NCBI GenBank assembly: GCA_017860275.1
Contig: JAFNAQ010000006.1
Location: 1 to 64,000, forward strand
DNA: 64,000 nucleotides
Source: Bacteroidota bacterium
GTDB lineage: Bacteria > Bacteroidota > Bacteroidia > Bacteroidales > P3
Direction of reading: 5' to 3'
A program made the translations under genes and the position numbers. This document shows positions 18,848 to 47,548 of this stretch, in pieces. Position 1 is the first letter of the stretch; each line of letters starts with the position of its first letter. The notes under the pieces were generated by a model, which ran no database searches, had not been told where the DNA came from, and saw nothing but the letters and a program-made list of their open reading frames with translations.

Positions 18848-18979
18848 TCAAAAAATCCATAAATAATTCAATTATTTTCAGTATATTTGCATTACAAGTT
18901 CATTGTACGTGCGCCGCTTGCCTACGCCCAACAAACAACAAAAACAATCCCAAAAAAATTAGATGCACATCTTAATAAA

Positions 18980-19020
18980 TTATGGTAGGTACCCTAGCAC
19001 GCCTAGGGTACCTACCATAA
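18980..19020. repeat. Perfect 18-bp inverted repeat, 5-nt loop
   Basis: TTATGGTAGGTACCCTAG (18980-18997) is the exact reverse complement of 19003-19020, separated by CACGC. A degenerate extra copy of the right arm (CTAGGGTAGCTACCA) follows at about 19026-19040. There is no T run, so it is not a simple terminator; a protein-binding palindrome or an end of a small non-autonomous element are options. Confidence 0.8.
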
Positions 19021-19250
19021 CACCACTAGGGTAGCTACCACAGCAATAATTAATCCTTATAAAAATACTTCAAAACAAGGATTCCCCACAACAACACAAG
19101 GATTCAGGAGACAGAAACGAAGAAAAAAAGTTTTATATCATTATCCTTGACAAAAGGTCTAAAATATATTATCTTTGCAATCAAGAAAGTAAAAGCCAAG
19201 TCGTTTGGCTCAAAATCTAAGATTTAACCTAGAATTTTCTAATAAAAAAA

Positions 19251-19306
19251 GATGCACATCTTTCACACCAAAAGATGTGCATCTTTTATGTCATTAGATG
19301 TGCATC
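19251..19306 (+). repeat. Three GATGYRCATC sites at 23-bp spacing (copy 3)
   Basis: Sites at 19251-19260 (GATGCACATC), 19274-19283 and 19297-19306 (both GATGTGCATC), with 13-bp spacers. The first site begins 74 nt after the promoter box ending at 19177. The spacing is identical in copies 1 and 2. Confidence 0.85.
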
Positions 19307-19581
19307 TTTCGCACATGAAAACAGCGTTTAAAAAGTTTTAATCAGTTATTAGAAATAATTTAAACGCCATTTAAAAAGATTAAATCAGGCATTAGAATTT
19401 CCGCAATCAAGGACATAATATTTTGTATAGCCTTTTGATGAAAATTAAATGCCCTTTCCCTAGAATTTTCTCTAAGAAAAATAAATTTATCTCTCGGATA
19501 ATTTCAAAGATATGGAGTATAAATTAGAAAAGAAGGTGCAATATTTCCCATAAAATAATTTGCAGAACAAAAAAATATTTC

Positions 19582-19589
19582 TACATTTG
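19582..19589 (+). promoter_or_regulatory. Promoter box of the candidate structured RNA
   Basis: TACATTTG fits TAnnTTTG exactly. The predicted start site (about 19595) falls at the first base pairs of the hairpin at 19593-19630. Confidence 0.55.
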
Positions 19590-19592
19590 CAA

Positions 19593-19858
19593 TTATTCTA
19601 ACACTTCAAAGCGTTGAAGAATTAGAATAACATTTAGAAAGCGTATTAGTATCTTCTAGAAACAAATGTGGAAATTTGCAACAAAGTAGAAGATAAATAT
19701 AGTACTGCTTGCGCTAGTGTTATTACTCTGCCCTAAAGCTAAGGCGATGGGGCAGTTTATATAAACTATTGGCGTGGGTTTTATTATTTTATCTTACTTT
19801 GTAGGCCTCCACAGCCTGTTTCTAGGATAATCTTAATAAATTCCCACGCTTTTTTATT
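19593..19858 (+). ncRNA. Candidate structured RNA or attenuator leader, about 265 nt
   Basis: Seen in order: hairpin 1, TTATTCTAA (19593-19601) with TTAGAATAA (19622-19630), inner stem CTTCAA/TTGAAG; hairpin 2, TATCTTCTA (19649-19657) with TAGAAGATA (19687-19695), inner CAAAT/ATTTG; hairpin 3, CTGCCC (19728-19733) with GGGCAG (19750-19755); small hairpin AGTTTATATAAACT; then a long closing stem GCGTGGG (19772-19778) with CCCACGC (19843-19849), extended by TTTATTA/TAATAAA and followed by a T run, i.e. an intrinsic terminator. It has its own promoter box and ends 48 nt before the LamG gene ATG. No promoter box is visible after the terminator, so it may be a cis attenuator; an independent small RNA is the alternative. 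I do not recognise the family. Confidence 0.6.
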
Positions 19859-19906: not shown

Positions 19907-21418
19907 ATGAGAAAACATTCTTTTTTAATTGTATTTGCAATATTAATATTTGCCAATACATCAATTGCACAACTCCCACAGAATGTTCCTACAAATGGTT
20001 TAGTAGGATGGTGGGGATTTAATGGAAATGCCAACGATGGAAGTACCAATGGAAACAACGGTATTGTAAATGGAACAACATTAACTACAGATAGAAACGG
20101 TATGGCGAATAGCGCATATTATTTTAATGGGAACAGTAATATTACCATTGCACATAATAGTGGCTTTCTTTGTTCTAACTATAGCCTTTGTTTTTGGGCT
20201 AAATATAATACAAACTCAATTGATAATAATGGAGGTCAATTACCTGGATTGATAGGGAAAGGTGGGCAGACTACAAATGGGAAAGTGATAATATACGAAA
20301 GTCTTGGTGTTATTAATACTCAAAATGATTATTCAAGTGGGACAGTCGGCGTGGCATCAACTTCAATACCATATAATGATAATAATTGGCATTTTTTTGT
20401 TTTTACATATCAAAGTGGTGACACAATAAAAGCGTTTGTAGATGGTGTTTATAATGCGTCAGTAAATATTAATTCAACATTTGTATTCAATAATGTATCC
20501 CCATTGAAGTTTGGTAGAGTTGATGATTATTATTTTAAATCTTATACAGGATATTTGGATGATGTTGGTTTTTGGAATCGTTCTTTAACACAGCAAGAAG
20601 TTTTAAACTTGTATAATGGATGTACTTTGGCAACACCAATAATTAATCCTTTATCATCAACAAGTTTTTGTCAAGGAGGTAGTGTTCAATTGATGTCAAG
20701 TGAGCAAAATAGCTCTTATTCTTATAGTTGGTATTTGAATAACAATATAATAAATGGAGCAAACCAAACAGTTTATACTGCAAATACAGCAGGAAATTAC
20801 ACATTAAAGGTAGATGCAGCTAGTTGTTCAAAGATGTCTAATCCTGTAACAGTTTCGGTAAATAGTCTTCCAAGTGTTTCAGTTTATGTTTCTCCTTTTA
20901 TAAATATCCAAAATTCACAAGTAAATATAATAGGTAATCCTTCAGGAGGAATAGCTTATGGTAATGGTGTCACAGGTATGCTTTTAAATCCTGAGACTGC
21001 TGGTCTGGGGAATAAAAGCATTTTATATACTTATGTTGATGCTAATGGTTGTAGTGCGACAGCTACGGCATCAACAATAATTTATGATACAATAAAGTGT
21101 TATGTATCTGTTGATGATACATTAATAATAAATACAAATGTTGGTTTTCAAGGAAATGCAAATATAACTAATCAAATAAAAATATATCCAAATCCAGCCA
21201 AAACAAACATTATAATAGATAATGGAAATTATAATTATATGAACGGTTATTCTATTCAAATATATAATACGGCAGGACAAATGGTTTATAATCAACCAAT
21301 AAATCAACAATTATTTAATATCAATATTTCTACATTGACAGGTAAAGGGCTTTATTATCTAAAAATTATAGATTCAACAAATACAATAATTGAAACTAAA
21401 AAGATTGTAGTGCAGTAA
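19907..21418 (+). CDS. LamG-domain secreted protein with T9SS sorting domain
   Basis: 503 residues. Seen: signal peptide (about 1-21, ending SIAQ); a concanavalin-like LamG domain (about 30-235) opening with NGLVGWWGFNGNANDGS and ending LDDVGFWNRSLTQQEVLNLYNG; an Ig-like stretch (about 245-330, CQGGSVQLMSS... ANTAGNYTLKVDAASC); a further domain (about 330-385); and a T9SS type A sorting domain (about 425-503: KIYPNPAKTN, IQIYNTAGQMV, GLYYLKI, KKIVVQ). It should be exported by Sec, then across the outer membrane by the type IX system, and probably binds carbohydrate or other cell-surface ligands. The preceding structured region (19593-19858) may control it; a strong terminator follows (21440). 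Confidence 0.85.
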   Translation: MRKHSFLIVFAILIFANTSIAQLPQNVPTNGLVGWWGFNGNANDGSTNGNNGIVNGTTLTTDRNGMANSAYYFNGNSNITIAHNSGFLCSNYSLCFWAKYNTNSIDNNGGQLPGLIGKGGQTTNGKVIIYESLGVINTQNDYSSGTVGVASTSIPYNDNNWHFFVFTYQSGDTIKAFVDGVYNASVNINSTFVFNNVSPLKFGRVDDYYFKSYTGYLDDVGFWNRSLTQQEVLNLYNGCTLATPIINPLSSTSFCQGGSVQLMSSEQNSSYSYSWYLNNNIINGANQTVYTANTAGNYTLKVDAASCSKMSNPVTVSVNSLPSVSVYVSPFINIQNSQVNIIGNPSGGIAYGNGVTGMLLNPETAGLGNKSILYTYVDANGCSATATASTIIYDTIKCYVSVDDTLIINTNVGFQGNANITNQIKIYPNPAKTNIIIDNGNYNYMNGYSIQIYNTAGQMVYNQPINQQLFNINISTLTGKGLYYLKIIDSTNTIIETKKIVVQ

Positions 21419-32315: not shown

Positions 32316-32510
32316 GATATTCCCGCATCGATTCGAATCAGTTTGGAAACTCAACATTAAAACTGAAACGAGTTAGCTTGATTGGGATAAAACAGGCCTC
32401 AACTCTTCGGAGTTTCCTTTTAGGGACAGTGGACGTTTGACACCAATGGCGCTCAAAACTTTCTTATTAGGAGTTTTTCAATACTCCATTTTGGAAAGAT
32501 GCGGGTTTTT
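32316..32510 (+). ncRNA. ssrS: 6S-like RNA
   Basis: About 195 nt between zapA and rny. Seen: CCCGCATC (32322-32329) pairs with GATGCGGG (32498-32505) to close the ends, and the 3' arm runs into TTTTTT, so it ends like an intrinsic terminator. The interior contains a stable AACTCTTCGGAGTT hairpin (32401-32414) and further complementary stretches, giving a long rod with a large open middle, the 6S RNA shape. 6S RNA binds the housekeeping RNA polymerase as a promoter mimic. Assignment rests on gene order plus end pairing, not on a covariance search. Confidence 0.7.
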
Positions 32511-47391: not shown

Positions 47392-47402
47392 CATTCAATA
47401 AA

Positions 47403-47451
47403 TGTGGAAAGATTTGACTTGCTTGCAACCACAGAAAAAAATGCTAAAAAC
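47403..47451 (+). promoter_or_regulatory. SAM-II riboswitch aptamer
   Basis: Seen: P1 stem TGTGG (47403-47407) with CCACA (47429-47433); between them the SAM-II core GATTTGAC and CTTGCTTGCAA; then an A-rich joining strand and the conserved pseudoknot strand GCTAAAAA (47443-47450). This order (P1, GAUUU, UUGCA, P1', A-rich, GCUAAAAA) is the SAM-II class consensus. The class represses methionine/SAM genes when SAM is high, and metK makes SAM, so the biology fits. The aptamer lies 107 nt from the metK ATG, farther than usual, but overlaps the start of a small ORF. Confidence 0.85.
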
Positions 47452-47548
47452 AATAATCTTGTTTACATATTTTCTATTTTGTAAGTCAATTCCAATCATT
47501 CTTTTCATTTATGGTAATGTAATTTATTACTCATTAATAATTAAATAA
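47441..47548 (+). CDS. Possible 35-residue leader peptide between riboswitch and metK
   Basis: An ORF of 35 codons starts with ATG at 47441-47443, inside the SAM-II pseudoknot strand, and stops at 47546-47548, 9 nt before the metK ATG. The peptide is hydrophobic (LKTIILFTYFLFCK, then IPIILFIYG). If translated, SAM binding would hide its start codon and metK could be controlled by translational coupling, which would explain the long distance between aptamer and metK. A frame this long can occur by chance in A/T-rich DNA (very roughly one in ten), so the evidence is positional only. Confidence 0.35.
   Translation: MLKTIILFTYFLFCKSIPIILFIYGNVIYYSLIIK

Follow-up and report, generated by a model that had tools for sequence, protein, structure and literature searches.

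Bacteroidota rank among the major inhabitants of the gut and of many environments, and how their surface proteins are controlled is understood only in part. The c-di-GMP riboswitches are present in many copies per genome before diverse genes, surface genes included. Kissing hairpins that mature into an extended duplex are known from the retroviral dimer site and from RNAI/RNAII of ColE1. The crcB and pfl motifs are transcription-terminating riboswitches with a conserved fold that overlaps the terminator, according to the consulted sections of PMC2864571, which also list the GUCCY-hairpin among unnamed or minor motifs of Bacteroidetes. The excerpts of two further reports describe 64 structured 5' regions in Flavobacterium psychrophilum (PMC9723704) and 3161 RNAs predicted in microbiomes, of which some are from Bacteroidetes and one is near TonB (PMC8040213).

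The DNA analyzed here, called the window, covers positions 1-64,000 of the forward strand of contig JAFNAQ010000006.1 of a Bacteroidota bacterium (GCA_017860275.1). An earlier note on this DNA had proposed a structured RNA in front of a LamG gene, and the fold bore this out: the folding energy of 19593-19858 was -91.2 kcal/mol versus -53.1 (sd 4.7) in 200 shuffles, and 0/200 shuffles were as stable (z = -8.1). The same note had the RNA extend from a promoter box to a terminator. The terminator was found, its stem GCGUGGG/CCCACGC ending at 19849 and being followed by six T, but the start had to be moved, since the box at 19582-19589 precedes 19593. The long hairpins were present as described; they do not, however, form one fixed series, because one strand (C) has two partners and the loops of two of the hairpins are complementary to each other. 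The ATG of the LamG gene at 19907 lies 48 nt past 19858, as stated in the note. No other TAnnTTTG was found on the + strand between the box and 21380, the limit of the stretch searched, and up to that point the LamG gene has no independent promoter box after 19858. By Pfam, the product of the LamG gene has LamG-like and Ig-like domains and a T9SS sorting tail behind a signal-peptide-like start. The features are collected in Table 1.

Table 1. Features of the leader RNA copy in the window and of the adjoining gene (window positions).
Feature	Position	Strand	Basis or remark
Promoter, TTTG + TACATTTG	19559-19562, 19582-19589	+	pattern positions; spacer 19 nt; window 19582 is position 1523 of locus L001
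5' hairpin, 9 bp + 6 bp, at predicted RNA start	19593-19630	+	fold
Leader RNA, family core	19635-19858	+	full match to model R2
Strand A (5' half-hairpin), partner of B	19639-19653	+	A:B pairing in A7
P1 5' strand CTAGAAACA, partner 19817-19825	19656-19664	+	alignment pairing
Hairpin hp1; loop strand K 19667-19672, complementary to 19808-19813	19663-19678	+	alignment pairing
P2 5' strand ACAAAGT, partner 19796-19802	19681-19687	+	alignment pairing
Strand B, antiterminator partner of C	19706-19720	+	B:C pairing in A7, A5
Extra apical hairpin CUGCCC/GGGCAG	19728-19755	+	fold; missing from shorter family members
Strand C, partner of either B or D	19771-19795	+	pairing in A5, A7
P2 3' strand	19796-19802	+	alignment pairing
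Hairpin hp2 AGGC/GCCT; loop strand K 19808-19813	19803-19817	+	alignment pairing
P1 3' strand TGTTTCTAG	19817-19825	+	alignment pairing
Strand D, terminator 3' strand	19825-19849	+	C:D pairing in A7, A5
Terminator U tract	19850-19855	+	sequence
LamG gene, 503 aa, candidate controlled gene	19907-21418	+	Pfam

A known RNA family, which the earlier note had considered as an alternative, was not found: in Rfam 15 the window copy had no match that reached the gathering score, and no credible one at E<=10. When 29 related loci were compared with Rfam (gathering score or E<=0.5), no match fell on the element, and the matches off the element were a tRNA, DUF805, and lsy-6. 6S RNA was considered and rejected, as RF00013 had no match in this genome at E<=10 and the 6S-like match of the window lies elsewhere. 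This match, at 32326-32502 on the + strand, was below threshold for both 6S-Flavo (RF01685; 45.5 bits, cut-off 85; best at 32349-32476) and Bacteroidales-1 / 6S-Bacteroidales (RF01693; 42.4 bits, cut-off 60), and probably marks the 6S RNA of this genome, which the curated cut-offs have missed. The window also contains a SAM-II riboswitch above the cut-off (47398-47457, +), repeated palindromic units around AAGATGCACATCTT at 18952-19315, and a perfect 18-bp inverted repeat, TTATGGTAGGTACCCTAG, at 18980-19020.

Homologs of the element were searched at increasing distance. By blastn, a second copy with 88% identity was found in this genome (2.9 Mb, 111 contigs). It precedes an unrelated short ORF and also carries the hairpin of 19593-19630, and between the two copies 5 of the 85 predicted pairs were changed on both sides. 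An HNH-type protein just under the Pfam cut-off (L003, 6591-7874, +) is located divergent from this second copy. The RNA was found by blastn in none of 10 other genomes of the genus; promoter-like matches in two genus genomes were discarded, their match being limited to the promoter. Matches of 19648-19692 in 3 of 393 genomes of the order, to a putative glycogen-synthase-like gene, were regarded as chance because they fall at an apparent coding-gene start and do not share the fold of the element.

A covariance model built from the two copies in this genome (R1) matched 34 of 190 genomes of the taxonomic family at E<=1, and these matches included a third copy in this genome. The second model, R2, was built from 27 sequences found by R1, with a mean column identity of 57%; the window copy is absent from these 27, though the model that found them came from it. 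The window copy matched R2 over its full length (model 1-174 of 174; 83.8 bits, E 7.2e-15), and R2 detected the RNA in 8 of the 10 other genus genomes where blastn had found none. Window 19635-19858 belongs to a family of structured leader RNAs that has no Rfam match.

With R2 at E<=0.01, the RNA was found in 179 of 190 genomes of the taxonomic family (104 of the 109 good ones) and in 159 of 393 genomes sampled from the order. At E<=0.001 it was found in 55 of 395 genomes sampled from the phylum, a sample that extended to other orders of the class and to other classes; each of these counts takes in this genome. These scans scored 7-14 candidates per genome, and the copy numbers from them are lower bounds. 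When more candidates were scored, 33 of 34 genomes were positive, the genomes being chosen and mostly known positives. Four copies were found in this genome and up to 70 places in another (G185). Candidatus Symbiothrix dinenymphae (G972, locus L168), one of six genomes reached via named records, has 48 places, and 9 weak matches (32-51 bits) were found in each of two MAGs labelled Kiritimatiellae; these numbers for this genome, G185, G972 and Kiritimatiellae count both strands, with overlaps checked by eye in G972 only. The Kiritimatiellae matches may reflect a family that crossed phyla, or mixed bins. TAnnTTTG was found upstream of 0/17 Kiritimatiellae elements. The Kiritimatiellae matches (L132, L149, L170) precede surface-protein-like genes. 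At another locus (L137, 54-800, -), three elements are arranged in tandem on the same strand within 750 nt. An exact 27-base pattern gave no match in viral contigs, and phage and plasmid records contained no match to the element. The covariance model from homologs that the earlier note had suggested revealed a family across Bacteroidota, and the interpretation in that note was understated.

The element is ordered as A, P1, hp1 (loop K), P2, B, C, P2, hp2 (loop K), P1, D, and U tract. It consists of two long half-hairpins, of which the 3' one is the terminator; the tips and flanks of the two are paired with each other. Pairing was examined in A7, a set of 49 matches, of which 44 came from outside the order, 4 from same-order genomes, and 1 from this genome (L240). 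The P1-K-P2 core in A7 was 96.4% paired, and 18 of 19 pairs were changed on both sides. The core covariation score was 0.91 versus 0.19 in shuffles, with 0/500 as high. Compensatory changes, the lack of which the earlier note had named as a point against its reading, are abundant among the homologs.

A7 was aligned with R2, whose structure has the core and B:C without A:B or C:D; pairing of the latter two is therefore a freer test. A:B was paired in 91.1% of cells with 16 double-changed cells (88.4% in shuffles), and in 94.4% in alignment A5. C:D was paired in 98.8% of cells versus 97.3% in shuffles, with 3 double-changed cells, and when it was slid by +3 columns 94.4% of cells were still paired; for B:C the values were 98.5% versus 96.7%, with 5 double-changed cells. 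In A5, B:C and C:D were each at least 96.8% paired, with double changes in 4/7 and 4/6 pairs, respectively. Covariation in A, B, C, and D was thin in A7 because these strands are highly conserved. The Kiritimatiellae matches use other letters in strands C and D (e.g., GGCGCAUUC with GGAUGCGCC), and the two strands are mutually complementary in 12 of 17 rows, L312 and L321-L324 being left out. Because C, which forms the terminator stem on the 5' side, also has a conserved pairing with B, the terminator and the antiterminator exclude each other, as expected of an attenuator. A fully symmetric exchange among four strands including A:D was also considered and found unsupported in the wider set, with A:D paired in 25.1%, no better than shuffles. 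The strand exchange is not fully symmetric, since A:D is unpaired outside near relatives.

Each half alone forms a long hairpin tipped by hp1 or hp2. For the fold of the 3' half by itself, z was below -2 in 27/27 and 49/49 members, and for that of the 5' half in 19/27 and 33/49. Pseudoknot-free energies favor B:C over C:D in 25/27 and 42/49 members; in the window copy, they were -79.1 kcal/mol for the free fold versus -66.9 with C:D forced. The terminator is therefore not the predicted ground state.

The position of the element was analyzed relative to promoters and genes. In 174 of 218 places, TAnnTTTG, the Bacteroidota promoter motif as quoted in the available part of PMC6414381, was found within the 160 nt upstream of the element, compared with 11% in shuffles of two-base blocks and 38/218 on the reverse strand; within the 100 nt following the terminator it was found in only 18/218. 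The element is closed by at least 4 T at the place of the U tract in 207 of 226 cases. An intrinsic terminator, as read from sequence, is located between promoter and gene, again as expected of an attenuator. Since the box precedes the RNA family-wide and rarely follows the terminator, transcription would usually have to pass the RNA and the terminator. In the 60 nt upstream of the elements, the letters GACAT were found just before strand A in 87/226 versus about 8 expected from single-base shuffles.

Over 204 places with an ORF of at least 70 aa, the next ORF was on the same strand in 193 and on the opposite strand in 11 (same strand by set: 77/80, 46/48, 70/76); 23 of 227 places had no such ORF in the stretch examined. 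The neighbor sets overlap in part, for example L019 is L183, so the 193/204 are not all independent. Before counting, 9 antisense echoes and 2 duplicates were removed from the 99 matches of one R2 scan. The contig-record set was obtained by a pattern fixing the commonest loop letters, and its 80 places are among the matches listed, of at least 119 stretches. The upstream ORF was in the same and the opposite orientation in 45 and 35 cases and in 46 and 39 cases in two Bacteroidales sets, and in 16 and 32 cases in the wider-phylum set. The downstream ORF was on the same strand in 17, opposite in 2, and absent in 1 of 20 further Symbiothrix places, and the corresponding numbers were 10, 2, and 5 for 17 Kiritimatiellae places. 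The median distance from element to gene was 58 nt among 148 same-strand genes, counted as ORFs of at least 100 aa within 350 nt. These positions point to a cis-acting leader RNA. The arrangement is not specific to LamG, because the same order of promoter, RNA, terminator, and gene recurs before many unrelated genes.

Judging from their sequences, the downstream genes are diverse and enriched in exported proteins. Signal-peptide-like starts were found in 84/148 downstream proteins versus 150/631 other nearby ORFs, by a crude, home-made rule and against a background that includes spurious ORFs. Pfam was run on 135 of the 148 proteins (60 + 75), long ones being cut to about 1500 bases, and its output gives domain counts without naming the matching member. 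TonB-receptor plug domains were found in 13/75, presumably in the long, SusC-like proteins among the wider-phylum rows; BspA leucine-rich repeats were seen in 4/60 and 5/75, and T9SS sorting tails in 4/60 and 3/75. The remaining domains included DNA methylases, restriction proteins, two ECF-type sigma factors, a sugar transferase, and others. No pathway dominated among these 60 + 75 proteins, and no common function pointing to a ligand was seen among the downstream genes. Those of this genome include the gene for the LamG/T9SS protein and, at L240, a lipoprotein-like ORF.

These results suggest that the element is probably a cis-acting transcription attenuator which would work like a transcription-terminating riboswitch, and that the leader RNA probably decides between an early stop and continuation into the gene. 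This is in line with the riboswitch or protein-controlled attenuator dependent on readthrough that the earlier note had proposed. The family, its helices, the two competing pairings as complementarities, the position between promoter and gene and, up to 21380, the lack of a further promoter box in the window copy are established here; interconversion of the pairings, regulated readthrough, and a sensor role of the core are inferred. In the proposed mechanism, the promoter at 19559-19589 would drive a leader with two alternative folds. In the OFF state, the RNA would form two half-hairpins, A..B tipped by hp1 and C..D tipped by hp2, and C..D with the U tract would act as an intrinsic terminator, halting RNA polymerase before the gene. 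In the ON state, C would remain with B and the half-hairpins would zip into one rod via P1, K, and P2, so that the terminator would be blocked from forming and the gene would be read. In order of time, C would meet B first, and D, as it emerges, could take C from B to form the terminator, unless the tips had already been zipped into the P1-K-P2 rod. The loop-loop contact K would start the zipping, like a kissing complex maturing to an extended duplex. Because the predicted energies favor B:C, the outcome is expected to depend on timing and on any binding partner; a putative signal on the conserved tips, either a small molecule, an RNA-binding protein, or an elongation factor, would bias the choice.

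Other explanations have to be weighed against this attenuator. The element might be a constitutive 5' structure that stabilizes or insulates the mRNA, with a fixed leak through the terminator and no sensing; the strong fold, the downstream genes without common function, and the rod as predicted ground state would all fit. We consider it unlikely, as the two exclusive pairings of C are both kept, even where the letters differ. A free-standing gene for a trans-acting small RNA, with the downstream gene being incidental, could likewise have its own promoter and terminator, several copies per genome, and a rod-like fold. Such a gene would have no fixed relation to its neighbor, whereas the next ORF here is nearly always on the same strand at a short distance and a promoter box seldom follows the terminator, which makes this explanation quite improbable, though the terminated product could have a second role.

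A terminator and an antiterminator before a gene would also be seen in an attenuator of the leader-peptide or T-box type. Short frames are, however, rarer than in shuffles: ORFs of at least 10 codons starting between promoter and element numbered 53/161 versus 106 expected from single-base shuffles. Together with the lack of a T-box match in Rfam and of a fixed gene class downstream, this leaves such an attenuator very unlikely. We give equally little credence to a mobile DNA element with the RNA fold as its by-product. Some genomes contain dozens of copies, the likeness between two copies here extends from the promoter to about 42 nt past the terminator, and some copies likely arose by duplication; but orientation and distance to the gene are fixed, no terminal inverted repeats were seen, members are on average only 57% alike, and the phage and plasmid records contained no match.

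Going beyond the attenuator itself, we tentatively suggest, as a possibility that falls short of even chances, that the family represents either a class of orphan riboswitches or the RNA component of a global system of antitermination, which would sense one shared internal signal and switch large sets of genes, namely exported, surface, and restriction-modification genes, in Bacteroidota and some Kiritimatiellae. Its fold would be new to gene control: a pair of kissing hairpins, of which one is the terminator, would exchange strands to form a rod. The family is present in nearly every genome of one taxonomic family, with dozens of copies in some, and has carried no Rfam label. The leader RNA would explain part of the control of surface proteins in Bacteroidota, and it would be a tractable object for probing and for ligand or protein screens. 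A family model would let annotators mark many regulatory sites. If one signal governs all copies, its discovery would expose a regulon-wide switch.

We found no published description of the family in a search that was thin on subscription journals, preprints, and supplements, so that its absence from print is not established. 6S-Flavo and Bacteroidales-1 are also Bacteroidota RNAs of similar length with a rod-like fold, but the element itself has no match to them. The 5' regions of F. psychrophilum, compared by their description in the consulted part of that report only, are likewise Bacteroidota leaders without an Rfam match. The family could be among the RNAs of PMC8040213, as far as the excerpt describes them, and its hp2 loops often contain GUCC, a likeness to the GUCCY-hairpin that was compared by description only, from the sections consulted. 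Copy number and gene diversity are similar to those of the c-di-GMP riboswitches, but the leader family has no match to Rfam, through which alone the two were compared. With kissing hairpins it shares loop complementarity flanked by further complementarity between two hairpins, which here are located within one molecule, one of them being a transcription terminator. The leader RNA would work like a transcription attenuator or riboswitch, without assignment to a known class. It has in common with crcB/pfl-type riboswitches the position in the 5' leader, a fold competing with an intrinsic terminator, and readthrough expected upon stabilization of the fold. It differs from them in having no Rfam match or known ligand, in its many copies per genome before genes of no single pathway, and in its two half-hairpins with complementary tips, one of which is the terminator.
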